DNA of 57,488 nucleotides from assembly GCA_016213435.1 (NCBI GenBank), contig JACRAL010000216.1, positions 1-57,488 on the forward strand. Reading direction: 5' to 3'. Source of the DNA: Bacteroidota bacterium (GTDB taxonomy: Bacteria > Bacteroidota > Bacteroidia > Palsa-948). Below are positions 17,260 through 37,749 of the stretch, piece after piece. The notes beneath the pieces are model-generated. The model worked only from the letters and a program-made list of their open reading frames with translations, did not search any database and was not told the origin of the DNA. Positions within the stretch are counted from its first letter, which is position 1. Each line of letters begins with the position of its first letter. Position numbers and translations under genes: made by a program.

Positions 17260-18507
17260 ATGGACAACCAATCAACCAACCACGCAAACATGATCCGCAC
17301 AACAAATAAATATTGTGCCGATAACACCTCAGCCACCTCAGGCATGGCAGCCTTCGCACCCGCCCTTGCCCAATCACAGGCAAAACTTCTCCTCATCGAT
17401 CAGCTCGACCAGATCGCAATCACCACCACCAAAGGCGTAACCCTCGATACAAAAGCCCTCCGAAAATCAATGACCACTATTGCCCTCAAATGCGCCAACG
17501 CAGTCCATGCCTACGCAACGGTAGCAAACAATAACACCCTCAAAGCACAGGTAAACTATGCCCAATCAACATTAGACAGATTAAAAAAAGAAGAGATAGA
17601 CGATGTCTGCCAAACAATTCACGATGTCACCAACATCAACATGGTTAATGTTCAAACCTATGGAGTATCCAATGCCGATGTCGCCACCCTGCAAACCACC
17701 ATCAACCTCTACCGCACCGGCATCCAAAACCCCCGTCAGGCAATTATCAACAAATCCGATGCAATCAAACAGATCAAAGAGTTAATAAAAGACATTACCC
17801 AAACCACCTTCAAAGAACTGATGGATAAAATGGTCTTAACCCTCAAAGCATCAAACCCCAACTTCGTAAACAAATACTTTCAAGCAAGAGAAATCATCGA
17901 CCTCGGCTCCAACCCGCCACCACCTGTAACAACACATATCACCTTAATCACCGATCAAACTATTCTGCAGGCAATCATCCTGAAAATAGCTGGCAATGCC
18001 TTGGCAACAGGCACCGAGCAATTTAAAATTAATTTTGGCGATGGCACCGAAATGATAGGCACTCTGGGAAACGGAATTCTTACAAGCTATCCCCACGATT
18101 ATAATATACCCGGTGCCGATGCATCAGGCATTTACACCATAACCATAACACCCATCACCGCTGGCGCTTTCGCCCTCATGGGAGTTTTGCAGTTCGATAA
18201 CTGCAAACTTATAGACATAGTTAGCATCCCCGCTGATGTGCAACCTGCGGGCATTCAGATGCCCAATAATAAAATAACAAACCTAAGCATGCAAGCAGCT
18301 TCATTCAGCAAGCTCACTTCGCTTGTTCCTTTTAATAATGATATGACCGAGAGTAACGTAAATGCCAACTTAATTGGCTTGGATAACAACGCATTGCTTG
18401 GCGGCATTGCCAATCTGGGCGGTGGTACAAATGCGGCTCCCTCAGGTGCAGGGCTTACAGCAAAAAATAATCTGATTGCAAAGGGCTGGACGGTGCTGAC
18501 GAATTAG
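17260..18507 (+). CDS. Uncharacterised helical / PKD-like two-domain protein (locus A)
   Basis: A 415-residue protein with no signal peptide or membrane segment. Residues 1-215 look alpha-helical and rich in Ala, Thr and Asn. A PPPPVTTHI linker follows at about 222. The C-terminal half resembles a PKD-like beta domain (INFGDGTEM, GIYTITITPI) followed by leucine/asparagine-rich repeats, ending GLTAKNNLIAKGWTVLTN. The C-terminal half is homologous to that of the 43979-44953 protein: both share PPPPVT, ITDQ/ITSDQ and terminal GW-V-TN, but the N-terminal halves differ. I do not know its function. The absence of a secretion signal on a PKD-like protein is odd. Confidence 0.7.
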   Translation: MDNQSTNHANMIRTTNKYCADNTSATSGMAAFAPALAQSQAKLLLIDQLDQIAITTTKGVTLDTKALRKSMTTIALKCANAVHAYATVANNNTLKAQVNYAQSTLDRLKKEEIDDVCQTIHDVTNINMVNVQTYGVSNADVATLQTTINLYRTGIQNPRQAIINKSDAIKQIKELIKDITQTTFKELMDKMVLTLKASNPNFVNKYFQAREIIDLGSNPPPPVTTHITLITDQTILQAIILKIAGNALATGTEQFKINFGDGTEMIGTLGNGILTSYPHDYNIPGADASGIYTITITPITAGAFALMGVLQFDNCKLIDIVSIPADVQPAGIQMPNNKITNLSMQAASFSKLTSLVPFNNDMTESNVNANLIGLDNNALLGGIANLGGGTNAAPSGAGLTAKNNLIAKGWTVLTN

Positions 18508-20525: not shown

Positions 20526-20894
20526 GGGGCCGACAGGTTTTGACAGCGAGGAGGATGAGTTTGTAAGCATGCCGTGAGTTGGGAAAGTATCACGTTAATC
20601 ACAATTCTCAAATTCCAAATGGCGACTATAACTTCGCTATGGCTGCTTAATTGACTAAGTCAATATAAGTGCCTGCTTCCCGGATAGCTTTTTCTTTTCA
20701 GCGCTCCGGATCAAGCATCGCAAATGAAAAGATAGTTGTGAAAAGCTTTGGTTCACAGCGAAACTAAAGAAGCTAAGTTTGAAGTTGGCCGCTGCCTTGC
20801 CTGCTTCATTTCTAAAATCAAGAGGCAGCTAAGCGTGTAGAAAGCATATTTGTCCCTTGTTTGGACGGGAGTTCAAATCTCCCCGGCTCCACCA
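20526..20894 (+). ncRNA. ssrA: Transfer-messenger RNA (tmRNA)
   Basis: A one-piece tmRNA that rescues stalled ribosomes. The 5' end GGGGCCGACAGG pairs with the 3' GGCTCC before an encoded ACCA (acceptor stem), and GGGAGTTCAAATCTCCC forms the T arm at 20868-20884. The tag frame ends with codons for GDYNFAMAA and TAA at 20648-20650, typical of Bacteroidota. The exact resume codon is not certain. Pseudoknot-like G/C blocks follow. The 3' end overlaps, in antisense, the last codons of a decayed recombinase gene. This is the usual signature of an element integrated at the ssrA 3' end. Confidence 0.96.
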
Positions 20895-21552
20895 AAGGAG
20901 AAGTTCCTTTTTCTCCCCTTTACGCACCCGCCCCGCTAACGCGGGGCTTTTGCTTTGCAATGCCTTGTATTTAGGCACATTATAATAAGGCGGGACGAAA
21001 TCAAATAAGATTTTTTTATCCGTTAATAGGCGGTTCGTTCCAATTTTTTCCGCAACAGCCGATAAATCCTTAAAGTCATGATCTGAATTGGCAAGTTTCC
21101 CTGCGTGGTGAGCGGTCTTAACCCAATCGCGAAGGGGGTCGAGCCAAGTCAGCTTTTGCCCAAAACCGTTCTTCTGAGAATGTATATCTGCTTTAATTTT
21201 CATCAGTTCATCTTTCTTTCTCATGTAAGCATCCTTCTCCATTTCACCATCCAAATAAGTATTTACAAGCTTATCCATTTTTGTTTGTGATTCCTTTGTC
21301 CTTGCTTCAAGGTTTTGGGCAAAAGCAGCCGTACCCCTTTCGCTCATCTTGTGCCCACTGCTCAATTTGCCCTAACATATTTTCTGCCCATTCATCAGAT
21401 ATTGCAATGCTTTGAAGTTGTTCCCGCACTTGTTCCGCTACATACTTTTCCATTAAATAACCTTGTCCACACTTACCAAGTTTTTTCGTGCATCTGTAAT
21501 AACGATATATCCTTCCGCTCCTTCCTTTGGCAAATTGAGCAGTGACTAGAAG
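20829..21552 (-). pseudogene. Decayed large serine recombinase (C-terminal part), integrated at the ssrA 3' end
   Basis: Two overlapping minus-strand frames together read as the C-terminal part of a large serine recombinase. They carry a zinc-ribbon (YRYYRCTKKLGKCGQGYL) and a coiled-coil segment (LEARTKESQTKMDKLVNTYL, YMRKKDELMKIK). The tail WSRGDLNSRPNKG is read from the antisense of the tmRNA 3' end. A frameshift lies in the short homopolymer runs near 21334-21340. The N-terminal catalytic domain with the nucleophilic serine is missing; its place is taken by the ORF6N gene. It is therefore a dead integrase remnant marking an old insertion at ssrA. Confidence 0.75.
20930..20953 (+). terminator. 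Rho-independent terminator after ssrA
   Basis: GCCCCGC-taac-GCGGGGC followed by TTTTGCTTT. It lies 36 bases after the tmRNA end. Confidence 0.85.
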
Positions 21553-21554
21553 CG

Positions 21555-21950
21555 ATGATTGAAAATAGTATGAAAACAATCTGGGGCAAGCGAGTAATGC
21601 TGAGCAGCGATGTTGCAAAATTATACCGTGTAACTCCCGAGTACCTGCACAAACAGCTCAAAAAAAATATAGATCGCTTCCCGAAAGAATTTATGTTTAA
21701 GCTAAAGCCGAAAGCACTCAGCTCGTTCAAAGAGGAAAAATTTCCTCACGTTTTTACCGAGCAAGGAATATTAATGGTCGGAGGAAGTCTGAAAAGTGAA
21801 CAAGCCATAAAAATTCATGTACAGTTGATCCGGTATTTCGTGCAGTTATTTAACCAAACATTAAAGGATGTATCCCTGTTGAAAAAATTGGAACCCCATA
21901 TCAAAGGAGAGAAAATATTTGATGTTTTGAAGGAAATGTTTAAAAAATGA
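21555..21950 (+). CDS. ORF6N-domain (KilA-N-like) protein
   Basis: A 131-residue protein with an ORF6N-type DNA-binding domain. GKRVMLSSDVAKLYRVTPEYLHKQ and NIDRFPKEFMFKL are the typical motifs, followed by FTEQGILMVGG and a helix IHVQLIRYFVQLF. Such proteins are common on phages and integrative elements and are thought to bind DNA. It begins exactly where the recombinase homology of the opposite strand ends (about 21552), so it probably arrived with, or recombined into, the same element. An ATG at 21555 follows AGCG without a strong ribosome-binding sequence, as is usual in this phylum. Confidence 0.75.
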   Translation: MIENSMKTIWGKRVMLSSDVAKLYRVTPEYLHKQLKKNIDRFPKEFMFKLKPKALSSFKEEKFPHVFTEQGILMVGGSLKSEQAIKIHVQLIRYFVQLFNQTLKDVSLLKKLEPHIKGEKIFDVLKEMFKK

Positions 21951-23343: not shown

Positions 23344-24246
23344 CTATAATGAAATAATTTCTTTTCGGAGTTTTGTTATTACCTCCCGAATTATTTTTTG
23401 TTGCGCATCGGTTACTACAATTTTGCTTGTAGTATTATCCTCAATAACCAACTCTCCGTTTACTTCTTTTGTAATGGGTTCTTTATATTCATAGGTAATT
23501 GTAATGCCATCATATACTTTTTTTAACTCAGAAAAGTGCTCTCCTAAGTTTTTAAAGTAAGGATTTCCTTTGTAAAGATCAAGAATAACATTAAGATTCT
23601 CTATATTTATTTTTTGTGAGCCAATATTTTCAATTAAGTCATTTGTTTTATTGTTCTTCGCGATTTCAGAAGTGATGTATAATCCTTCTACCCATGCTCC
23701 GGTAATAATCAGAATGCTCAATTCATTTCTTTTGTGCTCACGAAGAAATCGATCCATTTTGTTAAAACAGGATGTGCTGATGAAAAGAACGGAATCCATG
23801 TTCTTGCTGTTGGATGCAAGTTTATTCAGGGTTTCAAAATCAAAGAATTGTCCAACCTGAATATCGTTTGATAAACTCTTGATTGAATGCAGATAATCAA
23901 TACTTGAAAGCGACTTTTCGTAAATATTAATATAGCCAAGATCTGCACTGTAAATTCCAATATTTATGGCTTTATCCATGCTTGTTCCGTATTTCTTATA
24001 GTTCTCGGAAGGATTAAGAATTTTTTCATTGAATTCTGCTCCTGACCCTTTTATGATGGATGCCATTTCTATAGGGCTGGGAATGGATTGAATAAGGTTA
24101 GTAATGGTTTTTTCAGACACATTAATAACAGCTTTTGTGGAATCTTTCCCACTTTCAATTTTGAGCGTGTCCTCATTTGAATTGCATGCCATGAATGCTC
24201 CGGCAATTAGGGAGTACGCGATGAGTTTAGTTAGCTTTATTTTCAT
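23344..24246 (-). CDS. Putative lipoprotein of the Sia-like operon
   Basis: A 300-residue predicted lipoprotein. A lysine-rich start and a hydrophobic stretch lead to FMACNSN, where the cysteine near residue 21 would be lipidated. The rest is mostly helical and charged (MDKAINIGIYSADLGYINIY, LITGAWVEGLYITSEIA) with no family I can name. The GIYSADLGYI and ITGAWVEGLY segments look like conserved-domain cores. It is the last gene of the minus-strand run from cheR, 58 bp after the ABC transporter. It could therefore be the periplasmic partner of that transporter. Confidence 0.7.
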   Translation of the reverse strand: MKIKLTKLIAYSLIAGAFMACNSNEDTLKIESGKDSTKAVINVSEKTITNLIQSIPSPIEMASIIKGSGAEFNEKILNPSENYKKYGTSMDKAINIGIYSADLGYINIYEKSLSSIDYLHSIKSLSNDIQVGQFFDFETLNKLASNSKNMDSVLFISTSCFNKMDRFLREHKRNELSILIITGAWVEGLYITSEIAKNNKTNDLIENIGSQKINIENLNVILDLYKGNPYFKNLGEHFSELKKVYDGITITYEYKEPITKEVNGELVIEDNTTSKIVVTDAQQKIIREVITKLRKEIISL

Positions 24247-24304
24247 AGTTGGATGGTGTTAGTCTTTTTTTATTGATCTTATTGCATTATAAACAATGCC
24301 AGTT

Positions 24305-27300
24305 TTATTTGCTGACTGATTTGATCTTAAGTCCTTTGAATGAAATTAAATTCTTTAATGCATCAAAATATAGTAGTATAAATCCGATAATGGACATAAG
24401 CCATATAATAATTACATTGTAATAGAAAGTAGGAATTTTTTTGTAGAATAAATATTTAGTTGAAATAAAAAAAGGATCATTCATTGAGGCAATTCCTTTT
24501 TTAGTGTTCTGAAAAACAGGATCAACTATTTGTTTAATGTTGTTTCCTTCAATAATATATTTTCTTTGTAATTGATTGTTGCGTGTTATTTCTGCAAGAT
24601 ACGAGTTCGAAAAATCATTTTTGATTCTGTAATATTTATTCTTTGATATGGAATCAGTGGTGAGAGAGGTAATTATGTTATTTTTTTCATTATCCATTTT
24701 ATTGAGCAAATCAGAATTGTAGGTCTTTAATGAACTGATGGTGGAATTTATTTCCGTGATATTATTTTTTATATCTGTGATGTTTTTCAAATCATTGGTT
24801 AGGTTGAATTTAATTCCCGCGGTAATACATTCTTTTCTTAGTTCATTTATTAAAAGATCGTATTTTTTTTTCAAATCATTACTTTGTTGTTCCTCCTTAC
24901 TTGAAATCTCGTTGGTAAATTTTTCCAATTCAGGAATATAATAGGCTAATTTATAGTTCGCAGCACTGAGTTCTTTCTCGATGGAGTAAAAGATATTGTC
25001 AAAATTATTATTTACATATTGGTTTACCATTAATCCTTCATACGCCCATCGAGATGTCATGGCACTGGCAATTTTTGGAACTTGGTAGCCTCCGCCAACT
25101 GCTCTGTTCAGTTTTTCATAGCTGAACATAGCTCCTCCCAGGATCATTTGCGGAATTACCAAAAGTGGTATCAAGATATAAATGGTGACAGCTGAATTAA
25201 ATGCGGATGAAATATTTAACCCTACTATATTAGCAAAACTGGAAACAGAAAACAGCATAAGCCAATATGCAAAGAACATTCCTTTTATTCCAACTATGTA
25301 ATTTCCAATCATAACAAATAAGGCCGATTGAATGGCTGAGATAAATAACAGGATGATTACTTTAGAGGAGAGATAGCTGAAACGACTCAGATTCAGGAAT
25401 CGTTCTCTTTTAAGTATTTTTCTGTCTTTGTAAATTTCTTCAGCGCTGATTGTTAGACCTAAAAACAGTACAACAATAACACACATAAAAATATATGCCG
25501 GTATGTTTTCATTGTCTCTGAAAATATATTCCGACTTCCCATTGCCGTCATTATATCGGATAATGAAGGAGAGGAGAAAAGCGAGCAACGGAGCTTCGAG
25601 CAAACTGATCAACAAATATTGTTTATTGCTGATTTTAGAAAGAACATCGCGGGTAATAAAAATTAAAAACTGTTTGATCTGATTGGGAATTTTAAAAATA
25701 CTTTCAGGTAGATTTTTTCCCGCTTTCCCGATTTCTATCTTAAATTTTGCTTTGAACATTTCATACCAATTGAGCGGAGACATTTTCCTCTCAAGTGTAT
25801 ACTGTCCATATTCGTCCACTTCTTTGGCTTCGATAATATTAAATAACAACTCGGGATTAACATTGCCGCATGTTTCGCACTCGCCAATATCACTATTGAT
25901 CTGATGGGATGCTTTTTTAAGATACATGATTGACTCAATTGCATTGCCGTAATAAATCGGAAATCCGCCCACGTCCAGCAAATAAATCTTATCAAACATT
26001 TTGAAAATATCAGAAGAGGGTTGATGTATTACAACAAAAATCAATTTTCCTTTTTGGGAGAGTTCTTTTAAAAGATCCATTACATTTTCTGAATCTCTCG
26101 AGGATAATCCGGATGTCGGCTCATCTACAAAAAGAACAGAGGGTTCGCGTATTAATTCCAATGCAATGTTTAATCTTTTTCTTTGTCCGCCACTAATCGT
26201 TTTGTGAAGAGGCGAGCCCACCTTAATATCTTTTGCTTCCAATAAACCGAGATTAGAAAGTGTTTGAGTTACTTTTTCTTTTATTTCATCTTCTGTCTTA
26301 TTTTTGAAGCACAATTTTGCATTGTAGTATAAATTTTGAAAGACGGTAAGTTCTTCAATCAGCAGATCATCCTGCGCTATGTAGCCGATTACGCCTTTTA
26401 ATTCTTCATTTTCTTTAAAAATATCTTTGTCGTTTATGGTAACGCTTCCTTGCGTAGGGGTTTCCAATCCTGATAATATATTCAACAAAGTGCTTTTTCC
26501 GGCACCGCTTGCGCCCATGATGCCTACGAGGGTTCCGGACTTTTCGCAAATATTTATATCGTTGAGTGCAATCTTTCCGTTTGAAAAAACATGAGTTATA
26601 CTTTGCGCATTAAAAAGCAATTCTGTTTCACTTACATTTTTAAGAAAGATAGAAATCACTTCGCTGTAATAAATAGTTCCCCTCGGTAACCTCAAGGTGC
26701 TGCCATGAGGTAAAATATAGATGGAGTGTTTGTAAAGTGGAAGGCCATTCAGGAAAAGCTCAGCATTTCCAATATATTTTAAAAAGAAAAGGTTTACACT
26801 ATTAATCCGGATGATTTTTATAAAGCCATCTAATCCATCGGCAATAAAATGATTTATACTATTCTCGCTAAATGGAATACCTTCTTTATTATTATCAATA
26901 AGAAGGACATCACTTGACTCATAGGCGTAAGGATTATCCTGTAGAACACAACACTCAATCAGTTTGGATTCATTCGCATCTATTTTAAAAACTGTTGAAA
27001 CTGTATTGATGATTTGTTCACGTTGAGGCGTGAGTAGATTGTCTGATTTGACTAATTCGTATAACCTGACGAGTACTACAACTTTTTGTTTTTGGGTAAG
27101 AGTTTTATTGATTTTTCTGCAGATAGCAAGAATCTTAACTGAATCTTTTACGGAGGTTAATTTGGATTCTGTCTTTGATTCTCTCTTATCTGGTTTGTTT
27201 AAAATATCATCGTAAAGCATTAGGTATTCTGCTACCTTATTTTTGCTTAATTGACTCGTAAGAAATGTAGAAACAAAGTTCCGATGACGCTCATTGCTGC

Positions 27301-27364
27301 CGGTATCTTGTTTAGAGATAATGGCAAAAAGTTCCATCAATGCTTTTAGGATTTCTTCACTCAT
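24305..27364 (-). CDS. ABCG-type ABC transporter with TerB-like and FHA-like N-terminal region
   Basis: A 1019-residue half-transporter. Residues 1-140 are helical and resemble the TerB (tellurite resistance) fold. Residues about 150-270 look like a beta-rich, possibly FHA-like module. The ATPase (about 275-500) has GASGAGKS (Walker A), ISGGQRKRLNIAL (signature), VLFVDEPTSGL (Walker B) and VIHQPSSD (H-loop), the arrangement of the ABCG/White group. An ABC-2 membrane domain follows with about six spans (from LLISLLEAPLLAFLLSF to a last span near residue 990). A roughly 180-residue soluble insertion precedes the last span. The substrate is unknown. An FHA-like module would fit control by phosphorylation through the adjacent Sia-like genes. 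Confidence 0.82.
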   Translation of the reverse strand: MSEEILKALMELFAIISKQDTGSNERHRNFVSTFLTSQLSKNKVAEYLMLYDDILNKPDKRESKTESKLTSVKDSVKILAICRKINKTLTQKQKVVVLVRLYELVKSDNLLTPQREQIINTVSTVFKIDANESKLIECCVLQDNPYAYESSDVLLIDNNKEGIPFSENSINHFIADGLDGFIKIIRINSVNLFFLKYIGNAELFLNGLPLYKHSIYILPHGSTLRLPRGTIYYSEVISIFLKNVSETELLFNAQSITHVFSNGKIALNDINICEKSGTLVGIMGASGAGKSTLLNILSGLETPTQGSVTINDKDIFKENEELKGVIGYIAQDDLLIEELTVFQNLYYNAKLCFKNKTEDEIKEKVTQTLSNLGLLEAKDIKVGSPLHKTISGGQRKRLNIALELIREPSVLFVDEPTSGLSSRDSENVMDLLKELSQKGKLIFVVIHQPSSDIFKMFDKIYLLDVGGFPIYYGNAIESIMYLKKASHQINSDIGECETCGNVNPELLFNIIEAKEVDEYGQYTLERKMSPLNWYEMFKAKFKIEIGKAGKNLPESIFKIPNQIKQFLIFITRDVLSKISNKQYLLISLLEAPLLAFLLSFIIRYNDGNGKSEYIFRDNENIPAYIFMCVIVVLFLGLTISAEEIYKDRKILKRERFLNLSRFSYLSSKVIILLFISAIQSALFVMIGNYIVGIKGMFFAYWLMLFSVSSFANIVGLNISSAFNSAVTIYILIPLLVIPQMILGGAMFSYEKLNRAVGGGYQVPKIASAMTSRWAYEGLMVNQYVNNNFDNIFYSIEKELSAANYKLAYYIPELEKFTNEISSKEEQQSNDLKKKYDLLINELRKECITAGIKFNLTNDLKNITDIKNNITEINSTISSLKTYNSDLLNKMDNEKNNIITSLTTDSISKNKYYRIKNDFSNSYLAEITRNNQLQRKYIIEGNNIKQIVDPVFQNTKKGIASMNDPFFISTKYLFYKKIPTFYYNVIIIWLMSIIGFILLYFDALKNLISFKGLKIKSVSK

Positions 27365-27411
27365 AAAGTCAGATCAGTGGATCTAATGTGGTTAGTAGGT
27401 CGGAAAAAGGG

Positions 27412-27786
27412 TTAATACCCCATCAACTCAAAGGTTAATCCTACCAGATCTTTATATTCTTCGCCAGCTTCCATCATATCATTATCATTTTTGTCAAAAT
27501 GCCACTGAACGATAACATTAGTTCCTTTGTCTTTGATTTCTTCAAGCGCCATCAGGATATCCAAAATGATCTTAGAAGATGCAGTATTGAAGTATTCTAA
27601 TCTGATTTTCCATATCATTTCTTCTTCCGGTTTTTCGGAATATAAGTTTATCCAGTCCAGTACAGGCTGGTAAAATGTCACTACATCCTCAGGCAATGAA
27701 CGGCCTGAAATTTCAAATTGTTTGCTGGTAATGTCTAGTGTTATTGAAGGAGTGTCTTCGGTTCCTTTAAGGATTAATGGTTCCAT
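27412..27786 (-). CDS. siaC: SiaC-like regulatory phosphoprotein (DUF1987)
   Basis: A 124-residue protein of the SiaC/DUF1987 family. The conserved segment LEYFNTASSKIILDIL places a threonine at residue 68, the position phosphorylated in Pseudomonas SiaC. In that system SiaB phosphorylates SiaC, SiaA removes the phosphate, and unphosphorylated SiaC activates the diguanylate cyclase SiaD. Here the same three kinds of protein are adjacent, but no GGDEF gene is present. The next gene encodes an ABC transporter, which is therefore a candidate target. The start at 27786 gives a normal N-terminus (LILKGTEDTPSITLD). Confidence 0.85.
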   Translation of the reverse strand: MEPLILKGTEDTPSITLDITSKQFEISGRSLPEDVVTFYQPVLDWINLYSEKPEEEMIWKIRLEYFNTASSKIILDILMALEEIKDKGTNVIVQWHFDKNDNDMMEAGEEYKDLVGLTFELMGY

Positions 27787-27846
27787 GATGATTTATTTTT
27801 AGATTTATTATATGTTAATTATTTGGATTTTTTATCCTACTTCTTT

Positions 27847-28989
27847 TTATACTTCTTTTTTTGATACCAAGGTCAATAATGTGAAAAATGAGATGCGTTC
27901 ATTTATCTTGTCGAAACTATACGCAAGTTTATTCTCTGATTTTCGGGCCATATCTATGAATCCAAGTCCTGCTCCTCCAACTTCAGAAATAGTGGAGGAT
28001 AATCGAACTTGCTTGTACAACGCTTTCAGCCCCTCTTTATCGAGAGTATTGATCTGGTCAATTCTTGCCTGTAAAGGAGGAATGGAGGCATTGGCAATGA
28101 CGTTTCCGGATATGATAGAAAACTCATCCATGGAATTATGCCCGATCATAAAAATCGAAGGAACATAATCAGGATTTTCGGCTGAGTATTGATACTTGCA
28201 AATGTTTTGCAAACTCTCAACCATGACGTTAAATACTTTTTTCTTTAATGTGGAATCTAAACCTTCAGCATCAAACTTTCGTTCTGTCATGGAGAGCACA
28301 ATCTTGGTAATCTCTTGGGTAAAATCGCCTTCATATATAAGAATGATATTATTCTTATCCATTTCTTTATATAATTCATGTACATAAGAGATAGGTGATG
28401 CTGCGTTTTCTGCTAATGGAGAGGATCCATCTTCATTTTTTTCAAAATGGGCTTTGATTACCGTGCGTAAAGAGAAATAGGCGGTGCTATCATTAACATC
28501 TTCAAACTGGAAATCAAGCTTGCTGCCTGATTTTTTGGCAATATCAATGAGTCCAATTCCTGCACCACCTTCTTCCGAGAAGGAGGGCGTTGTAATAAGA
28601 GATTTATATAGTTCTTTCAGATCCTCAAGAGTCATGCTGTTTATGGCTTCCAGTTTATTTGTCAAAGATTGTTTTTTGTTTTTGAGAATAACATTTCCGC
28701 TATACAAAACGTAATCCTCCAGAAGCTTGCCAATCATGAACAAAGAAGAACTCGAATCGTCCTTGTGTTTGCAAATATTCTGCAAGCATTCTACCATTAC
28801 ATTGAATACTTTCTTTTTTATGGCGGTATCAGCCCCTTCCAGTAAGAGTTTTTTTTCAGTGGTGGCAAGAAGTGCTTTTGTGATTTCTTGAGAAAAAAAT
28901 CCTCTGTAAGCAAGCATGAATTTGTGCTTTTCCATTTTCTCTCGCAAATTAGTTACATACATTAAGGATTCGGGGCTATTATCTTCCAT
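27847..28989 (-). CDS. siaB: Tandem-fused SiaB-like protein kinase (two domains)
   Basis: A 380-residue protein containing two copies of a roughly 185-residue SiaB-type kinase domain (residues about 10-190 and 205-375). Each copy has an N-box-like helix (VMVECLQNICKH; VMVESLQNICKY) and a glycine-rich lid (GGAGIGLIDIAKKSG; GGAGLGFIDMARKSE). These are features of GHKL-type ATP binding. SiaB normally is a single domain that works as a dimer, so the fusion probably makes an intramolecular pair with room for the two halves to specialise. The histidine of copy 1 (QNICKH) is tyrosine in copy 2. It lies between the SpoIIE phosphatase and siaC genes. Confidence 0.82.
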   Translation of the reverse strand: MEDNSPESLMYVTNLREKMEKHKFMLAYRGFFSQEITKALLATTEKKLLLEGADTAIKKKVFNVMVECLQNICKHKDDSSSSLFMIGKLLEDYVLYSGNVILKNKKQSLTNKLEAINSMTLEDLKELYKSLITTPSFSEEGGAGIGLIDIAKKSGSKLDFQFEDVNDSTAYFSLRTVIKAHFEKNEDGSSPLAENAASPISYVHELYKEMDKNNIILIYEGDFTQEITKIVLSMTERKFDAEGLDSTLKKKVFNVMVESLQNICKYQYSAENPDYVPSIFMIGHNSMDEFSIISGNVIANASIPPLQARIDQINTLDKEGLKALYKQVRLSSTISEVGGAGLGFIDMARKSENKLAYSFDKINERISFFTLLTLVSKKEV

Positions 28990-29018
28990 AGTAAATATTT
29001 TTTTGTTTATATATATAT

Positions 29019-31484
29019 TTAAAACCTTATGCCTATTAATAATACGTCATCCATTTGTTTGTGATTTCCTTTCCATTGTTCAAATTCATGGTGGATGAGA
29101 GTACCTATTTTATTCATGTGTAACGAGTTATTTTTCTTTACGAATTCTTGCACCCTATTGCTCATGAATTTTGTTTTTCCATCAGGTCCTCCAAATTGAT
29201 CAGGAAGACCATCCGTAAAGAAAAATATTGATTCCCCTTTTTTGAATGTGATGACATGGTCTTTAAATTTTTCTCGGTTCTTGTAATGAAATCCACCTAT
29301 AGGATAACGGTCTGCTTTCACTTCATTAAACTCAAATCCGTTGTTATCCTGTTTTAAATAATAGAGTGGGCGATGTGCTCCGGAATAATGCAGTTCTTTT
29401 TTCTTCAGATTAATTCTGCAAAGTGCAATATCCATTCCGTCACGGGATTTGCTATCGCCAGTATCTTGTCGTAATGTTTGTTGTACATTTTGGTGAAGCA
29501 GGTCAAGTGTTGCTCCGGCATTGGGAAGTTTTTCAGAAGTAAGAACCTGGTTTAATGTAAAATGTCCAATGAATGACATGAGTGCGCCAGGAACTCCATG
29601 CCCGGTGCAATCCACAGTGGCAACATAGATTTCATCATCTTTTACAAACATCCATGGAAAATCACCGCTTACCACATCTTTAGGTTTGTAGAACATGAAG
29701 GAATCAGGAAAGTGCTGCCTTAATGTAGCTTCTGTTGGGATAATAGAATTTTGAATTCGTTGAGCGTAATTTATACTTTCAGTAATCTTTTTGTTTTGCT
29801 CATTGATTCTATTTTCATTTTTTTTCTGTTCAGTGATGTCATGTGAAACAATGAGAAGAGTTTCAAGTTTTTTCTCGTTATATTCGGGGATAATATTTAT
29901 TTGCATGATCTTCTCTCCGTTAATAGTAGGAAAGACGAGTTCTTTTGTAATGGGTCTGTTTTCTTTTGTGATTACTTCAATGTCTTTTTTCCACTCTTCA
30001 ATAATTGAGTTTGGAAAATCTACAGAGGAGAAAGGTTTTTGCAAATATTCAGCAGGTTTTTTTCCTGTAAGAGATTCAACAGTTGGATTTATGTAAAAAA
30101 TATTTTCGTCAATGCCGATGCGCAGGATCAAATCGTGACTATTTTCAGAAAGAGACTGCATCTGTCCTCGCAATCGTTGCTCTTTTTCCGCTTTTCGTTT
30201 CTCGGTAATGTCTCTTGAATTAACAATAATTCCGCGTATAGCAGGATCGTGAAGCATGTTTTTTCCTGTTGCTTCCAGCCAGATTTTGCTATTATCCTTT
30301 CGAATATAACTTATCTGAATGGTTACCGTAAATCGCGGATCTTCCTTCAGTTTTCTGAACATTTCTTTTACTGACTCAATTCCTTTTGGATGTACGCGCT
30401 GATACGAAGTATTTCCCATCGTTTCTTCAGGTGTATATCCTATTATGTTTTTTGCAGAAGGACTTTCATATCTGACAATTTCATTCTCATCGTAAATAGT
30501 AATAATCTCAGATGCATTTTCCAATAAGGCATGCAATTTTTTATGACTTTTATTTACTTCATCTAAAAGTTTGGATGTTCTTTCATTAACACCAAGGTTA
30601 AAAATGGTTTGTCCGATAACCTTGCATACTTCTTTAATAAATTCAATTTCCAGTGCATTAAATATATTTAGGGATGCAATCTCGATTACGCCATAAAGAT
30701 TATCATTTGAAATGCAGGGCACAATCAACAAGCTATTAGGTTTTTTATCGCCAAGAATTCCTGATGTAATAGAAAAATAACTGTCGGGAATCTCTGTTCG
30801 GTAAATAAAGTCTCGTTCTATTGCTGCCTGTCCAACTAATCCTTCTCCAATTTTAAATTCCGGAGCAAGGTATTTTTTTCGATTATAGGCATAAGAAGCT
30901 TTCATGCGAATGATCGCCAGTTTGCTGTCGTCCTCTTCTATAGTATAAAAAGCTCCTTGAATTGCATTGCATTTTTTTACGAGGAAGACAACCAGATGAT
31001 ATCCTAATTCCGTTAAGTCAGTATAGCTGCGTAAGACTTCTCCCAGTCCGGTCATGCCTTCCATTTTCCATTGCCTGTCATGCTCGTCTTGCGTTGTTTT
31101 GCGAAGATTATCCCGCATCTTTATTAATGCAGTGCTGATGCTGTCATTTCCGTTTTGATATTCAATATTGAATTCACCTTGCCCTATTTTTTCTACAAAA
31201 GCGCCTACTTTGTTCATGCTTGCCGATTGTTCCTGCAATGTTTTATTTAGGAGTAAGAGACGATGATTATAATAGAAGCCGAGGGCACCGCATGCCAGCG
31301 TGAGGAAAACTGGTACAGTATCCATTGCAAACCAAAATAAGGGAGAAGAATAATGCAAGCCGATAATAAAATCTATATTGAGTCCGGTTTTATCGTTATT
31401 TGCTGTAATACTCCATATGGTCAGAAGAAATAATATTCCTGAAACGAAACCTATAAGGGCGGATATGATGGTTTTAATTCTCAC
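29019..31484 (-). CDS. Membrane SpoIIE/PP2C phosphatase with GAF and two PAS domains (SiaA-like)
   Basis: An 821-residue membrane-anchored serine/threonine phosphatase. Two membrane spans lie in the first 75 residues (IISALIGFVSGILFLL; VFLTLACGALGFYY). A HAMP-like stretch follows (VEKIGQGEFNIEYQ). A GAF domain follows at about 145-300 (GEGLVGQAAI, SLLIVPC), then PAS domains at about 315-440 and 450-560, and a short coiled coil. The PP2C domain occupies about 590-820 with VSGDFPW, DCTGHGVPGALMS, SGAHRPL and DDVLLIGIRF. It would dephosphorylate the SiaC-like protein. Upstream of it in the operon is another GAF protein. Confidence 0.9.
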   Translation of the reverse strand: MRIKTIISALIGFVSGILFLLTIWSITANNDKTGLNIDFIIGLHYSSPLFWFAMDTVPVFLTLACGALGFYYNHRLLLLNKTLQEQSASMNKVGAFVEKIGQGEFNIEYQNGNDSISTALIKMRDNLRKTTQDEHDRQWKMEGMTGLGEVLRSYTDLTELGYHLVVFLVKKCNAIQGAFYTIEEDDSKLAIIRMKASYAYNRKKYLAPEFKIGEGLVGQAAIERDFIYRTEIPDSYFSITSGILGDKKPNSLLIVPCISNDNLYGVIEIASLNIFNALEIEFIKEVCKVIGQTIFNLGVNERTSKLLDEVNKSHKKLHALLENASEIITIYDENEIVRYESPSAKNIIGYTPEETMGNTSYQRVHPKGIESVKEMFRKLKEDPRFTVTIQISYIRKDNSKIWLEATGKNMLHDPAIRGIIVNSRDITEKRKAEKEQRLRGQMQSLSENSHDLILRIGIDENIFYINPTVESLTGKKPAEYLQKPFSSVDFPNSIIEEWKKDIEVITKENRPITKELVFPTINGEKIMQINIIPEYNEKKLETLLIVSHDITEQKKNENRINEQNKKITESINYAQRIQNSIIPTEATLRQHFPDSFMFYKPKDVVSGDFPWMFVKDDEIYVATVDCTGHGVPGALMSFIGHFTLNQVLTSEKLPNAGATLDLLHQNVQQTLRQDTGDSKSRDGMDIALCRINLKKKELHYSGAHRPLYYLKQDNNGFEFNEVKADRYPIGGFHYKNREKFKDHVITFKKGESIFFFTDGLPDQFGGPDGKTKFMSNRVQEFVKKNNSLHMNKIGTLIHHEFEQWKGNHKQMDDVLLIGIRF

Positions 31485-31486
31485 GT

Positions 31487-32095
31487 TTATAAAGTTTCTG
31501 TTACTATTTTTGATGCTGCTTCAATAAAATTTTCAAATTCTGTGTCAAAGGGATGAAATGCTGCTAATTCCATCACTCCAACAATAATGTCATTTTTAAC
31601 AAGCGGACAAATAATTAAATGTTGCGGTACTGCTTTTCCAAGACCAGATACGGCAGGGATATGTTCCTCCGGTGCAGTATTAAGCATTAATGTTTTTTTG
31701 TCTTTTGCCACTTGACCGATCAGTCCTTCTCCCATTTCGAATTCAATGGGTTTGCTTTCCGGACAATAAAATGCATAACCGCAATTAAAACGAAGAAAAG
31801 TGCGATCGTCATTTTTATGTATTAAATATAATGCTCCTTGAACGGCTTGAGTTTCGGTTGCAAGTTTATGCAATAGAGATTCGTGCTTATTTGTTTCATT
31901 TGGTAACCCTGCAGCAAAAGTTTTAAAAGTATTTATTTTAGATTGAAGAAAATCCGTTTTTTGATTGTCAGCATTTGTTGAATCTTTTTTGTCGATTTCA
32001 GATGCAATATTGTCATTCTGTTTTTTTCGTTTTTTAAAAAGTAAAAACAGTAGAACGACATTCAGGGCAGCGCTTATGAGTAAAATTGTTTTCAC
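31487..32095 (-). CDS. Membrane-anchored GAF-domain protein
   Basis: A 202-residue protein with one N-terminal membrane helix (ILLISAALNVVLLFLLF), a basic/charged linker, and a GAF domain from about residue 60 to the end (VQGALYLIHKND, GEGLIGQVAKD, HLIICPLVKNDIIVGVMEL). It contains no output domain, so it probably senses a small molecule and acts by contact with a partner such as the adjacent phosphatase. The GAF sequence is closely related to the one in that phosphatase. Gene spacing is 2 bp to the next gene and 1 bp to cheB, which implies one transcript. Confidence 0.8.
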   Translation of the reverse strand: MKTILLISAALNVVLLFLLFKKRKKQNDNIASEIDKKDSTNADNQKTDFLQSKINTFKTFAAGLPNETNKHESLLHKLATETQAVQGALYLIHKNDDRTFLRFNCGYAFYCPESKPIEFEMGEGLIGQVAKDKKTLMLNTAPEEHIPAVSGLGKAVPQHLIICPLVKNDIIVGVMELAAFHPFDTEFENFIEAASKIVTETL

Positions 32096-32096
32096 G

Positions 32097-32663
32097 TTAT
32101 TGTATGGTTTTCAAGAGATTTACAATTTCATCGCTTATTAGTGATTTATCTATAGGAGTTGCTTTCAAAGCAGCTTCAGGCATCATTTTAATTGTTGCTT
32201 CATCGGGATGTTGCACTATGGTTAAAGCGCCCCTGTTTTTAGCAATTCTAATTCCATTTGCTCCATCTGAATTTGCTCCTGACAATATTATCGCGATAAG
32301 TTTATCTCTATAAGTATAGGAAGCTGTTTCAAATGTTAAATCAATTGAAGGACGAGAATATTTGATCATATCGTCTGTTGATAACGCGAAGGCGCCTGAA
32401 GGTTCAATCAACAGATGATAATTAGCCGGAGCGATATATGCAATTCCGTTTTTCACTTGGTCTTTGTCGTTTGGTTCAATTACAGGTATAGCAGATTTTG
32501 TAGATAATGCTTCCACGATGCCATGTCGGACATGTTTAAGACGATGGAGGCAAAATATTACAGGCATATTTATATTTTTCGGTATGTTATTCAATATTTT
32601 CATCACTACCGGAAAACTTCCTGCTGACCCTCCTATAACTATTGCTTTATATCCGGTCAGCAT
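32097..32663 (-). CDS. cheB: CheB-type protein-glutamate methylesterase (no receiver domain)
   Basis: A 188-residue stand-alone CheB catalytic domain. The catalytic triad is visible: serine in IGGSAGSFP, histidine in FCLHRLKH and aspartate in SGANSDGANG. It lacks the N-terminal receiver domain of classical CheB, so it is not directly controlled by CheA. The start at 32663 places the catalytic serine near residue 12, as in related stand-alone domains; a further 25 upstream residues in this frame are just the end of cheR read in another frame. The start overlaps the cheR 3' end by 17 bases. No chemoreceptor is nearby, so its substrate is open. Confidence 0.88.
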   Translation of the reverse strand: MLTGYKAIVIGGSAGSFPVVMKILNNIPKNINMPVIFCLHRLKHVRHGIVEALSTKSAIPVIEPNDKDQVKNGIAYIAPANYHLLIEPSGAFALSTDDMIKYSRPSIDLTFETASYTYRDKLIAIILSGANSDGANGIRIAKNRGALTIVQHPDEATIKMMPEAALKATPIDKSLISDEIVNLLKTIQ

Positions 32664-33492
32664 TGTCTTTGATTTTCTGATATATTCTTTCTTCTGCACT
32701 GAATGTGAGAAAATTATCACTGCTTTTGCAAAAAGCAATTGTTTCTTTTTCTCCCACAGCTAAAAAACCTTTCATAAATAAACTATTTCCAAATAATTCG
32801 ATTGCTTTATTTTGCAATTCCGGATTAAAATAAATCATCACATTGCGGCATAGAATAAGATCAAATTTCGAATACTGCTCATTTTGAACAAGGTCAAATT
32901 TTTTGAATGAAACATTTTCGATAAGGGTTTTATCAAAAACTACATTTTCTTCTTTCGATGAATAATAGTCAGACAACTTTCCCTTGCCCTCAAAACGCTG
33001 GTAATTCTTTTCATTTACTTCCATATTTCGATTAGGGTAAGTTCCATTCATGCCTTTTTGTAGAACCAGATCATTGATGTCAGTAGCAAGTATTTTTGTT
33101 TTGTGAAGAAGATCAGCCTCTTTAAGAACAATAGCGAGGGAGTATACTTCTTCTCCTGAAGAACAAGCTGCACTCCATATGCGGAGGGAAGGATAATGTG
33201 CAAGAATCGGAAGGACATCGTTCCTGAGTTTTCTCCAGAAAGCGGGGGCACGAAACATCTCAGTTGTGTTAACGGTGATCTCGCGAAGAAACTCTTCAAA
33301 AAAAACAGGATTCTGTTGAAGTTTTATTGTCAGGGACTCGATATTGGGTATGGAATATACCGCAAGAATTCTTTCGATTCTCCTCTTAAATGAAGAAAAA
33401 GCATAGTTGTTAAAGTCAAACCGATAAGTAGTCTTAATAAAAGAAATCAGATGTTTGATCTCTTTTATTGTTATTTCGTTCGTTTCAGTCAT
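32647..33492 (-). CDS. cheR: CheR-type protein-glutamate methyltransferase
   Basis: A 281-residue SAM-dependent methyltransferase. An N-terminal helical CheR domain (FSSFKRRIERILAVY) precedes the Rossmann-like catalytic domain. The catalytic domain has EITVNTTEMFR, LRIWSAACSSGEEVYSLA (SAM binding), ILATDIND and FDLILCRNVMIYFN. It would methylate glutamates on a receptor-like partner, and CheB reverses this. CheA, CheW, CheY and chemoreceptors are absent from the window, so the pair seems to serve the downstream GAF/SpoIIE/Sia proteins. It is the first gene of the minus-strand operon. The 250 bases upstream (33493-33741) hold no gene I can support. Confidence 0.9.
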   Translation of the reverse strand: MTETNEITIKEIKHLISFIKTTYRFDFNNYAFSSFKRRIERILAVYSIPNIESLTIKLQQNPVFFEEFLREITVNTTEMFRAPAFWRKLRNDVLPILAHYPSLRIWSAACSSGEEVYSLAIVLKEADLLHKTKILATDINDLVLQKGMNGTYPNRNMEVNEKNYQRFEGKGKLSDYYSSKEENVVFDKTLIENVSFKKFDLVQNEQYSKFDLILCRNVMIYFNPELQNKAIELFGNSLFMKGFLAVGEKETIAFCKSSDNFLTFSAEERIYQKIKDNADRI

Positions 33493-33741: not shown

Positions 33742-34185
33742 TTAATTTGATGATTTATTAAATCCTAAAATGTTCACTCCGCATCCTTCTTTGCCATTCT
33801 CGAAGGTCACTTCCAGATAATAGACTCCGGTGGCTGAACAGGGATAGCTGAACAATGGATAGAACTTTTTATTTGATTTGTTGAAATTGGTAGCTATCAT
33901 TTTGTGGTTTCTGTCAAAAAGAGTTACGATCATTTTATTGCCATCAATATTCTCATCGCAAATAATGATCTTATACGTTGATCCTTTGCTGAAAACATAA
34001 GAGTATTCATATTTGTTTTCAGCAGTTTTTTTGTCAATACTGATATTGAATGATTTGATGAACGTGAATTCTCCCAGCGAGGAGGCGCATTTGTCAAGAA
34101 ATGCATCCGAGGTGCACTGTGCTTCTGCGATGGAGTAAATATGCGATAGAAAAATAATAGCGGTGATTTGAAAAACATTTTTCAT
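33742..34185 (-). CDS. Small secreted protein of the T9SS adhesin operon
   Basis: A 147-residue protein with a signal peptide (MKNVFQITAIIFLSHIYSIA, cleavage expected after AEA). A probable beta-sandwich domain follows with four cysteines (QCTSDAF, DKCASSL, SYPCSATGVYYLEV, EGCGVNI). The SATGVYYLEVTF segment looks like a carbohydrate-binding or pre-peptidase C-terminal type beta domain, but I cannot assign a family. It starts 5 bases after the stop of the PorE-like gene and is the last member of a four-gene minus-strand operon. It is therefore likely to work with the surface machinery. Confidence 0.72.
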   Translation of the reverse strand: MKNVFQITAIIFLSHIYSIAEAQCTSDAFLDKCASSLGEFTFIKSFNISIDKKTAENKYEYSYVFSKGSTYKIIICDENIDGNKMIVTLFDRNHKMIATNFNKSNKKFYPLFSYPCSATGVYYLEVTFENGKEGCGVNILGFNKSSN

Positions 34186-34190
34186 AATAC

Positions 34191-36752
34191 TTACTTTTTT
34201 AATATTTTAAATTCTGTTCTTCTGTTTTTTTGATGTTCTGCTTCGGCTTGAGCGTTTTTTACAACCGGTTTTGTTTCTCCATATCCTTTTGCAAAAATCC
34301 GAGACGCATTAATGTCAAACAGGACTAAGTAATCTTTTACCATTTGTGCCCGAGCTTGCGATAATTTTAAATTATACTCGTCATCACCTCGGCTATCTGT
34401 ATGCGAGCTTAATTCAATCACAACCCCGGAATTTGCTTCCATAAAAGTAATCAATTTGTTTAAGGATGGGAGGGAGGAGGTTTGAATAACAGCACTGTTA
34501 TAATCGTAATAAACATCATCCAGTTTAATGATCGTATCAATTACAATTTCAGACAGATCAATATCTTTTATGATTTGTTTATTCCTTTGATCTGAAAAAA
34601 CCTCAATTTCTTTTGGCAAAAATCCTTTTTCAGAAACAGAGAAGTGGTATTTCTGAGAGGCTATAACGTTTAGATTGTACTGGCCGTTTGCATTGCTTGT
34701 AATTTTCTTTATCATGCCTAGCGTGTCACTTATCGAAATTTTTGCATTAGGCACTATTCCTTTTCTTCCCCTCACGGTTCCTATAACCTGAACTTTATTC
34801 AGGGTATCCACTTTCATCTGCTTTAAAGTTTCTTTTTTAGGTAATGTTGCTGTTTTTGATTGTTGTTTTGTAGCAACTGCTTGCTTCTTTGCTGTTATTA
34901 AATATTTTTTTCCGGGAAACAATTTTGCATTGAAAGAATAAAACCCATTATTGTTTGTTTTGCTGTTACTCACACTGGCCGCATTGGAATAATCAAGGAG
35001 CGAAACTGAAATATTTGTTATTGGAATTTGCTTCTTTTCAGCCGTAGAATCTTTATCTGTACTCTCCAGCAGAATGCCATTCACAGAGATGCCGCGTTGT
35101 TTCGGTAGGATATATGCCTGTATGTATTCCTTGTCTGTATTTCTTGTTAAGGACAATTCAACTTTGTTGTATGAAAAGCCTTCCTTTCTTGATGAGAGGG
35201 TAAAAGTTTTTCCTTCAGTGATTTGAAAAGAATATTTTCCGTTTTGAGAGATAAGCACATTTTCCTCGTTTGTTTCATTGTTGATTATTTTGTAAGTGAT
35301 TCCGTCCAGCAGGGAGTTGTCTTTAAATTCAAAAAACGATCCGTTGATGGAAAGTGTCATGGGTCTCATTTCAATGAAACCATAAATATCTTCTGCGCCT
35401 TTTCCGTTAAACCTGTCGGAACTGAAGAATCCCATATCATTCTCGTCAGAGAGAATAAAGGAAAAATCATCACCGATAGAATTGATTGGGGGTTGCATAT
35501 TGGTAACGTGCTTCCATTTATCTTCATCAAAATCATAACGAGCTGAAAAAATATCTAGTTTTCCCATGCCCGGATGTACGTCTGAAGAAAAGTAAAGTGT
35601 ATTGTCAGTAGCAATGAATGGATACATTTCGTGCCCGAATGTGTTGACCTCAGGACCAAGATTGACAGGTTTTCCCCATGAACCGTCTTTATTTTTTTCC
35701 ACATAATAAATATCGGTTCCGCCCTGTCCGCCAGGCATGTCCGACATGAAATATAAATACTTGCCGTTCTTTGTTAAGCTGGGGTGGGCAACAGAATATT
35801 GGGAGCTGTTAAACTCAAAAGCGCTTTTCGGTTTGCTCCATTTTCCCGTAGAATCTTTTTGGGAATATAAAATCTGTAAAGTGCTGATAATTGCTTTTTT
35901 ATTTTTTTCTCTTTTTCCTCTTATGGTACGTGTAAAGTAAACTTCGTTGCCATCTCTTGTAAAAGCTGCCGGACCTTCGTGCAACGGAGAATTAAGATCT
36001 TTCATATTTTCAGGAAGAGGAAGGTTGGCTGGGGGATAGTTTAATGGTTCATAATATAAATCCAGCCGGATGACTTCATCACCTCCATTAAAACTCATCA
36101 ATGCTTTTTTGGAATCTTTTCTTGATGAACAGAATGCGATTCCGTCTTTGTAAAATGCCGGAGAAAACTCACTGCCAGGTGTATTGACCTGTTCGATATT
36201 TTTCACTTCGTACCGTGCTTCCGCCATATTTTCATCCAGCCACTTTTGTGCCGAATCACAGCTATGCATGTACACTTTCCCCATGGGGTCTCCAGGATTT
36301 AGTTTTATGTATTCTTTAAATTGCTCTGATGCTTCGGCATATTTTGAACTTCCTTTTAAGCTCAGAGCGTAATTCAATATATTTTTAGCATTCTTTTTTT
36401 TCTTAGAAATTTTTTTGTAGGCATCTTCCGCCAATTCAAACTGACCGGTTAGCCGGTAGCAATCTGCGATCTGCTGCAATGCGGTGTCTTTGTTTTTCCC
36501 TTTTCCTTTGTCTAACTCCAATTGATAATTTGCAATTGCTTCTTTAAACATGTTTCGGTCAAAATATTTATTTCCTTTTGCAAGATATTTTTGTGCAATA
36601 GTTATATTTCCTGCGCATAACATTAGTAGTGTCAGCAATACAAAGCCAGTCTTGAATCCTTTCCAAAGAACAATCGAAGGTTGTGAACGAAGCTCGCGTT
36701 CAATGCGTTCTCCTTCCCTTTGGGAAGGCAGGGGTAAGCTTTCATTTTTCAT
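34191..36752 (-). CDS. porE: PorE-like OmpA-family protein (TPR, PD40, carboxypeptidase-regulatory, OmpA)
   Basis: An 853-residue periplasmic protein with the domain order of the T9SS component PorE. TPR repeats come first (about 60-170, AIANYQLELDKGKGKNKDTA). A PD40 beta-propeller follows (about 190-470, YLYFMSDMPGGQGGTDIYYV; LYFSSDVHPGMGKLDIFSA). Carboxypeptidase-regulatory-like beta domains come next (about 480-730), then a C-terminal OmpA peptidoglycan-binding domain (SSHTDSRGDDEYN, FAKGYGETKP). The N-terminus is odd. The hydrophobic signal (TGFVLLTLLMLCAGNITIAQ, residues 36-55) is preceded by about 30 polar residues read from a palindromic repeat. The ATG overlaps the porP stop. Confidence 0.87.
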   Translation of the reverse strand: MKNESLPLPSQREGERIERELRSQPSIVLWKGFKTGFVLLTLLMLCAGNITIAQKYLAKGNKYFDRNMFKEAIANYQLELDKGKGKNKDTALQQIADCYRLTGQFELAEDAYKKISKKKKNAKNILNYALSLKGSSKYAEASEQFKEYIKLNPGDPMGKVYMHSCDSAQKWLDENMAEARYEVKNIEQVNTPGSEFSPAFYKDGIAFCSSRKDSKKALMSFNGGDEVIRLDLYYEPLNYPPANLPLPENMKDLNSPLHEGPAAFTRDGNEVYFTRTIRGKREKNKKAIISTLQILYSQKDSTGKWSKPKSAFEFNSSQYSVAHPSLTKNGKYLYFMSDMPGGQGGTDIYYVEKNKDGSWGKPVNLGPEVNTFGHEMYPFIATDNTLYFSSDVHPGMGKLDIFSARYDFDEDKWKHVTNMQPPINSIGDDFSFILSDENDMGFFSSDRFNGKGAEDIYGFIEMRPMTLSINGSFFEFKDNSLLDGITYKIINNETNEENVLISQNGKYSFQITEGKTFTLSSRKEGFSYNKVELSLTRNTDKEYIQAYILPKQRGISVNGILLESTDKDSTAEKKQIPITNISVSLLDYSNAASVSNSKTNNNGFYSFNAKLFPGKKYLITAKKQAVATKQQSKTATLPKKETLKQMKVDTLNKVQVIGTVRGRKGIVPNAKISISDTLGMIKKITSNANGQYNLNVIASQKYHFSVSEKGFLPKEIEVFSDQRNKQIIKDIDLSEIVIDTIIKLDDVYYDYNSAVIQTSSLPSLNKLITFMEANSGVVIELSSHTDSRGDDEYNLKLSQARAQMVKDYLVLFDINASRIFAKGYGETKPVVKNAQAEAEHQKNRRTEFKILKK
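36700..36740. repeat. Palindromic element copy 9, at the 5' end of porE
   Basis: CCTTCCC-ttt-GGGAAGG followed by CAGGGGTAAGC (read on the plus strand) lies between the porE ATG and the coding sequence of its signal peptide. On the coding strand it reads LPLPSQREGER. Confidence 0.65.
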
Positions 36753-37717
36753 TAATAATAATACCTTGGATGAATTTCTTTTTCTTCAGCAGGCGGCAGC
36801 AGTTTTATTCCATAACTGATAAAAATCTCGTGCGTGCCATTGCTGTATCCTGACAATCCGGAAACGGCATGATCGTAGGCATACCCTATTTTAAAAGATT
36901 CTGTGATATTCACTCTAAAGATACCCGCAACTGCATCATGCGATCTGTAGGAAAGTCCTACTGTGATTTTGTCTTTAAAAATGAAATTAAGATTAAAATC
37001 TTCCTGAACCGGTGCGGCTTTTACATACTTAATCAGCAGGCTCGGCTCAATGGCGAATGATTCGGACAAATCAAAGACATTCCCAAGAAGAAAATAATAA
37101 TGCTTGAAAAGGTTTGCATTGATGGTTCTTTGAAAGTTTGCATAGTCAAGTTTGCTTTTTACTAAATGCATAGCAGAAAAACCTAAGTAAAATTCTTTCT
37201 TTCGGTAATAAGTGCCGAACGAGGCATCGGGGATCGTTCGTGCGGTTCGCTGACTCGGGATCGCATTGTCTATTTGGTCTTTCCGGATTAGATCAGGAAA
37301 AGAAATTGCCTGATTTAATACTCCGCCTTCAAGGCCAAATGAAAGTTTTCCGGAGGCAAAATTTAAATGGTAGGAACATATCCCGATTACATTTGTTTTT
37401 GAAACTACGGCAATATTCTCGTGTACTATTTTTAATCCTGTTCCTATATGAAATCGCTGAATGGGTGCATGAAAGGAAAACGCCTGCGTTTTTGGTTGCC
37501 CGGGGATCCCTAAGAACTGGGTTCTGTATTTTAATGTTCCCACCATCCAATTGGAACTTCCGGCAAAAGCAGGATTGATCTGTACTTTGTCGTACAAATA
37601 AATAGAATACATGGGATCCTGCTGGGAATATCCTTGGGTTAAGCCCGAAAGAAGAAGAAAAGCAATTGAAAAAAATTGCTTTGCATTTATTTTTATTGAA
37701 TTTAAATCACACATCAT
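36752..37717 (-). CDS. PorP/SprF-family type IX secretion outer-membrane protein
   Basis: A 321-residue outer-membrane beta-barrel of the PorP/SprF family. A signal peptide (FFSIAFLLLSGLTQGYSQ) is followed by the family opening QDPMYSIYLYDKVQINPAFAG. Repeated amphipathic strands end with HEIFISYGIKL. PorP/SprF proteins pair with type B sorted adhesins and help anchor them at the surface. The gene follows the giant PKD adhesin gene and overlaps porE by one base, matching that partnership. The first 13 residues before the hydrophobic core make the signal rather long; a later in-frame start is possible but none is an ATG. Confidence 0.9.
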   Translation of the reverse strand: MMCDLNSIKINAKQFFSIAFLLLSGLTQGYSQQDPMYSIYLYDKVQINPAFAGSSNWMVGTLKYRTQFLGIPGQPKTQAFSFHAPIQRFHIGTGLKIVHENIAVVSKTNVIGICSYHLNFASGKLSFGLEGGVLNQAISFPDLIRKDQIDNAIPSQRTARTIPDASFGTYYRKKEFYLGFSAMHLVKSKLDYANFQRTINANLFKHYYFLLGNVFDLSESFAIEPSLLIKYVKAAPVQEDFNLNFIFKDKITVGLSYRSHDAVAGIFRVNITESFKIGYAYDHAVSGLSGYSNGTHEIFISYGIKLLPPAEEKEIHPRYYY

Positions 37718-37749
37718 TGTTGTCTAACTTTTTGTTGCCACTTTAACGG

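Follow-up and report, generated by a model that had tools for sequence, protein, structure and literature searches.

What does a Sia-type phosphorylation switch control in a genome that encodes no GGDEF domain, and what is the role of the CheR and CheB genes that accompany it? The window, by which we mean the whole 57,488-nt stretch of Bacteroidota DNA that was analysed (contig JACRAL010000216.1), carries such a switch in a single minus-strand run at 23344-33492. All eight genes that an initial annotation placed in this run were found there, and they are transcribed in the order CheR, CheB, GAF protein, SiaA-like, SiaB, SiaC, TerB-ABC-ABC2 and lipoprotein. Spacing is tight, with intergenic gaps of -92 to +60 bp; the gap of -92 bp, between CheR and CheB, arises because the TTG start of CheB was called too long, and the true start is probably ~26 codons further in. 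Clustering of the genes around ABC loci assigned a ninth member to the set, c2, which the initial annotation lacked. Scans for sigma-70 promoters and terminators gave no more sites than shuffled sequences, and are uninformative on the limits of Bacteroidota operons. The relevant features of the window are:

33742-34185, minus strand: secreted 147-aa protein of family c2; no Pfam match; elsewhere accompanies the lipoprotein and ABC genes
32647-33492, minus strand: CheR glutamate methyltransferase; PF01739, 4.5e-42; best solved match 5ftw, 5e-30
32097-32738, minus strand: CheB methylesterase without a receiver domain; PF01339, 3.1e-43; alignment to 3sft/1chd
31487-32095, minus strand: GAF protein, single membrane segment near the N-terminus; PF13185, 4.3e-8; position between CheB and SiaA conserved in other loci
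29019-31484, minus strand: SiaA-like membrane GAF-PAS-PAS-PP2C phosphatase; domain matches; P. aeruginosa SiaA-PP2C structure 6k4e, 4.2e-27
27847-28989, minus strand: tandem double SiaB-family kinase; NF038262 in two stretches, 1.3e-88; Pseudomonas kinase structure 6kko_A, 2.7e-13
27412-27786, minus strand: SiaC phosphoprotein with Thr68 in YFNTASSK; PF09345, 2.6e-39; 6kko_C, 1.6e-16
24305-27364, minus strand: half-transporter of 1019 aa with TerB, FHA-like, ABC ATPase and ABC2 membrane domains; Pfam and AlphaFold/Foldseek
23344-24246, minus strand: lipoprotein, helical bundle of ~300 aa; lipobox Cys21; AlphaFold pLDDT 82
46330-47967, minus strand: candidate methyl-accepting receptor (membrane-HAMP-GAF-coil) with EEMTAT and no output domain; identified by the motif and 39% identity to SiaA
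43194-43220, minus strand: EEMTATHEE in the short surviving piece of a second receptor copy, preceded by in-frame stops

We put the probability at roughly 60% that this operon is a Ser/Thr partner switch with an ABCG exporter as its output and CheR/CheB adaptation, working without MCPs, CheA or CheW. A more specific version is tentative, and falls somewhat short of even odds: CheR/CheB-methylated HAMP-GAF-coil receptors would set the PP2C phosphatase, and SiaB/SiaC would directly gate the TerB-ABCG exporter, again with no MCPs, CheA or CheW.

The core of the switch is like SiaABCD of P. aeruginosa, where the PP2C phosphatase SiaA, the kinase SiaB and SiaC with its Thr68 are encoded in one operon and belong to the same domain families (PMC7647112, PMC8457831). 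Pseudomonas SiaC is phosphorylated at the corresponding Thr (PMC7647112), and the Thr68 that the initial annotation had noted in the window SiaC aligns with this phosphosite. The SiaA-like protein, with GAF, two PAS and SpoIIE/PP2C domains, is of the SiaA phosphatase type; its residues 552-821 align with NF038263 (E 5e-46, under the equivalog cut-off). Both copies of the SiaB-family kinase match NF038262 above its cut-off, and each half has ExxxN (N-box) and G-box motifs. Unlike SiaABCD, the window system has GAF and PAS domains in SiaA, a doubled SiaB, and CheR, CheB and a GAF protein in addition; an ABCG transporter follows siaC, and the genome has no SiaD. A domain search of the whole genome, which is 97% complete, found no GGDEF domain, which rules out a c-di-GMP output like that of SiaABCD. 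The statement that no cyclase serves as output is therefore firmer than first claimed, since the absence is genome-wide and extends beyond the run.

The gene in the output position encodes an ABCG exporter by both domain order and fold: ABC_tran (1.2e-33) precedes ABC2_membrane (3e-22), and the AlphaFold/Foldseek comparison gives an ABCG half-transporter (E 1.5e-23). Its TerB match, at 8.7e-4, is under the curated cut-off; across the family TerB was matched in 17 of 18 members, with a best value of 5e-9. Residues 147-250 weakly resemble FHA domains, which account for five of six weak PDB profile matches (E 0.04-0.9), and the Pfam families listed for the 18 members do not include FHA. The first 20 residues are conserved like the ATPase (0.81 vs 0.77), making them a candidate docking site. 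A helical, coiled-coil-like insertion precedes the last membrane helix. The lipoprotein has an N-terminal signal whose lipobox Cys is invariant across the family; it belongs to no known family, and structure comparison of its predicted bundle gave only middling helical-bundle matches, none of them significant. The c2 family has no significant relative in PDB or NCBIfam. A match of c2 to a T9SS sorting domain (E 0.01) is under that model's cut-off and was rejected.

Does the association of switch and transporter extend to other genomes? The ABC family is present in 41 of 60 relative genomes, and we clustered the neighbourhoods of 55 ABC loci from this sample. The lipoprotein (45 of 55 loci) and c2, a family of secreted proteins of ~140 aa (35 of 55), are constant companions of the ABC gene. 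In this sample, which is less biased than the set of named genomes below, 22 of the 55 loci have SiaC no more than 6 kb away from the ABC gene, against 1.22 expected from SiaC density (P 2e-20); at the other 33, the ABC gene has no SiaC neighbour. At the level of genomes, SiaC is present in 39/41 with the ABC gene vs 5/19 without it (Fisher 6e-8), and in 28/29 vs 4/19 when one genome per family is counted. An even sample of the phylum, 158 genomes including two (G000 and G020) that are also in the 60-genome sample, has the ABC gene in four and SiaC in eight; in all four ABC genomes a SiaC gene is directly beside an ABC copy, and the hypergeometric chance for presence alone, computed by hand, is ~3e-6. 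The window's own genome has three ABC copies and five SiaC genes, which precludes one-to-one pairing.

To follow gene order, we took the 80 best ABC matches in named genomes, among which close relatives are over-represented. At 39 of these loci a single strand carries CheR-CheB-GAF-PP2C-SiaB-SiaC-ABC in that order; c2 is found at 63, and exactly the CheR-to-ABC run plus lipoprotein and c2 occurs at 17. Median gaps within the recurring run are 3-58 bp. Genes outside its limits are unrelated; at one locus (L106) the bounding gene is what we take, from reading its sequence, to be recA. Conservation of the set extends to Bacteroidales, Cytophagales and Flavobacteriales. Among the culturable carriers are Flexithrix dorotheae and Carboxylicivirga marina; in C. 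marina the run lacks CheR/CheB. In the ABC and SiaC trees, operon-type members are largely grouped, with low support. The initial annotation had treated the arrangement as a meaningful set, and the neighbourhood frequencies, far above chance, uphold this. It had also named a finding that would speak against it, namely that the ABC and lipoprotein genes are rarely near siaBC elsewhere; we checked this, the neighbours recur, and the hypothesis passed.

Recurrence of neighbours might reflect co-regulation only, with the sia-che and transporter-lipoprotein genes sharing a stress response and their proteins making no direct contact. This would fit the ABC-lipoprotein-c2 sets that occur without sia genes among the 55 loci. 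It would also fit genome G031, where a receptor-CheR-CheB-GAF-PP2C-SiaB-SiaC run (L182:4931-12376) has no adjoining ABC gene, so that the signalling block can exist apart from the transporter. However, siaC and ABC neighbours are convergent as well as co-directional, the two families co-occur at the genome level, and a fusion joins TerB to SiaC in two species. We regard co-regulation alone as improbable.

In the first of these species (G046), a 374-aa protein consists of the ABC N-terminal module (HMM E 9e-22) and a SiaC domain (1.5e-28) that retains the NT(S/T)SS site, and its gene sits between siaC and the ABC gene. Another species of the same family (G086) has a fusion copy that is 62% identical and in the same order; the fusion was found in this one family only. 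No other result, short of an experiment, points as strongly to a joint function of SiaC and the transporter's N-terminal module. The fusion supports the transporter as the output of SiaC, in line with the position that the initial annotation gave it.

A model with the opposite direction of control follows BceAB-type modules, in which ABC proteins act as sensors: the transporter would be an input that responds to flux or to the state of the envelope, with its TerB module capturing or releasing SiaC for another, unlinked target. The fusion indicates contact, not direction; the five SiaC proteins in the genome allow for other targets; and the lipoprotein and secreted protein suit a sensor equally well. 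We nonetheless consider a transporter input unlikely, since the operon has sensory proteins of its own (SiaA, the GAF protein and the receptor), no unlinked SiaC target is known, and Pseudomonas SiaC acts on the product of a neighbouring gene (PMC8457831).

With the transporter as output, we propose the following mechanism. SiaB would phosphorylate SiaC at Thr68, and the PP2C domain of SiaA would dephosphorylate it, with the membrane, GAF and PAS parts of SiaA integrating signals. Depending on its phosphorylation state, SiaC would dock or not dock on the TerB/FHA-like module that the transporter dimer has in the cytoplasm, and this contact may turn ATP-driven export of a putative substrate either on or off. 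In the periplasm, the transporter would have the lipoprotein and the small secreted c2 protein as its partners. CheR and CheB are predicted to methylate and demethylate conserved EExxA(S/T) sites in the post-GAF coil, either in SiaA or in companion receptors like the one at 46330-47967; methylated GAF receptors would tune SiaA, giving the pathway a chemotaxis-like adaptation.

What is the evidence for a methylation step? CheR and CheB both have their catalytic motifs, and CheB aligns with 3sft/1chd across the catalytic Ser, His and Asp motifs. The window genome has one CheR, that of the run. It has no match to the MCP signalling domain (PF00015) or to the CheW/CheA coupling domain (PF01584). 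The initial annotation had described CheR/CheB without receptors or CheA; the absence of these domains agrees with this, but there are receptor-like GAF proteins that carry a methylation motif of the MCP type. The chemoreceptor methylation consensus is EExxA(S/T) (PMC1079850). In most SiaA proteins linked to CheR/CheB, the coil after the GAF domain reads RQNAEEMxATQEEL, and EExxA(S/T) occurs in 28/40 of them vs 1.9 expected. By comparison, it occurs in 4/18 PP2C proteins with no CheR in the locus and in one of five operons without CheR/CheB. Where SiaA has no motif, a linked GAF protein usually does, so that SiaA or a linked receptor carries it, under a slightly looser pattern, at 38/40 CheR/CheB loci. 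With a stricter DNA pattern, the long motif was found in six of the 60 genomes. Each of the six has CheR (Fisher 0.002), and among them are all four genomes with an operon CheR (Fisher 3e-5). E/Q pairs are frequent in coiled coils, and joint loss of CheR/CheB and the motif, at the loci where it occurred, may go back to a single event.

The window SiaA lacks the ~50-aa EExxAT coil that most of its relatives have. Because of this loss, it is probably another receptor, and not SiaA, that would be methylated in the window. The genome has two intact candidates, membrane-HAMP-GAF-coil proteins of 545-548 aa with the motif and no output domain. The first, at 46330-47967, lies 13 kb from CheR and shares 39% identity with SiaA across the HAMP-like/GAF region (E 4e-48). 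The second (G000:C181:3333-4979) is 75% identical to the first. The motif itself is present in the window protein and its relatives; its methylation is a prediction. The earlier proposal of methylation-based adaptation is strengthened by the motif and by its co-occurrence with CheR, but probably not with the window SiaA as the target.

The missing coil would also suit an explanation in which the switch controls the exporter but CheR and CheB are relics in this genome or have another substrate. Salmonella CheR can methylate PhoP, which is not an MCP, according to one published account (PMC8546571). However, both enzymes keep their catalytic motifs, two motif-bearing receptors are still encoded in the genome, and motif and enzymes occur together at nearly all CheR/CheB loci, as described above. 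We see a modest chance, and no better, that this explanation is correct. In two other Bacteroidota genomes, G009 and G025, a CheB-receiver-PP2C fusion directly follows CheR (L187:5279-7105; L188:5391-7217; receiver domain checked in the G009 protein only), which suggests another connection of methylation with PP2C signalling. The sister genome G001 has an equivalent of the receptor and a bacteriohemerythrin directly upstream of CheR; the bacteriohemerythrin (L056:1501-1914; NF033749, 1.1e-43) lies between the motif-bearing GAF/PAS receptor and CheR, a hint of oxygen or redox sensing.

How does the proposed system compare with others? Known partner switches act on sigma factors, cyclases and biofilm regulators. 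Those of the RsbP/RsbU-SpoIIAA type share with the window system the logic of a PP2C phosphatase, a GHKL kinase and a STAS-like phosphoprotein. Unlike them, the window system has no sigma factor or cyclase as an evident target; the predicted target is the transporter. If this is true, a membrane transporter is a new kind of partner-switch output, and SiaC (DUF1987) has a role in Bacteroidota that lack a c-di-GMP cyclase. Rv1747/PknF of M. tuberculosis likewise combines an ABCG-type half-transporter, N-terminal regulatory domains and adjoining genes for Ser/Thr phosphorylation (PMC3908365). Unlike Rv1747, the window ABC protein has TerB and a weakly FHA-like domain; the SiaB/SiaC/PP2C switch takes the place of a Hanks-type kinase, and a lipoprotein, a secreted protein and methylation enzymes are added. 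Chemosensory arrays (Che, Wsp, Frz) similarly have CheR, CheB and receptor coils with EExxA(S/T). The window system differs from them in having no MCP domain or CheW/CheA, and its predicted output is a phosphatase partner switch in place of a histidine kinase. CheR/CheB adaptation outside MCP-CheA arrays, if true, widens the meaning of "chemosensory". The make-up of the block, which recurs across many Bacteroidota, suggests a chemotaxis-like adaptation of a transporter without chemotaxis receptors, and EExxA(S/T) is a directly testable methylation site.

The single parts of the system are known families; the combination would be new if confirmed. In the non-subscription literature that we searched, we found no description of a SiaC or PP2C switch with an ABC transporter, in agreement with the initial annotation, or of CheR/CheB with PP2C.

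Downstream of the operon, 20829-21618 is a possible serine recombinase remnant, with a weak zinc-ribbon match and a broken frame. Plus-strand proteins are encoded at 17260-18507, 43979-44953 and 45114-45620; no Pfam match was found in the two examined, and the last two are clearly related. Immediately upstream of c2, 34191-42969 encodes a PorE-like PD40/OmpA protein, PorP/SprF and a 1739-aa PKD protein with a T9SS type B sorting domain. The receptor at 46330-47967 and the degraded copy at 43194-43220 lie upstream of a T9SS gene cluster.
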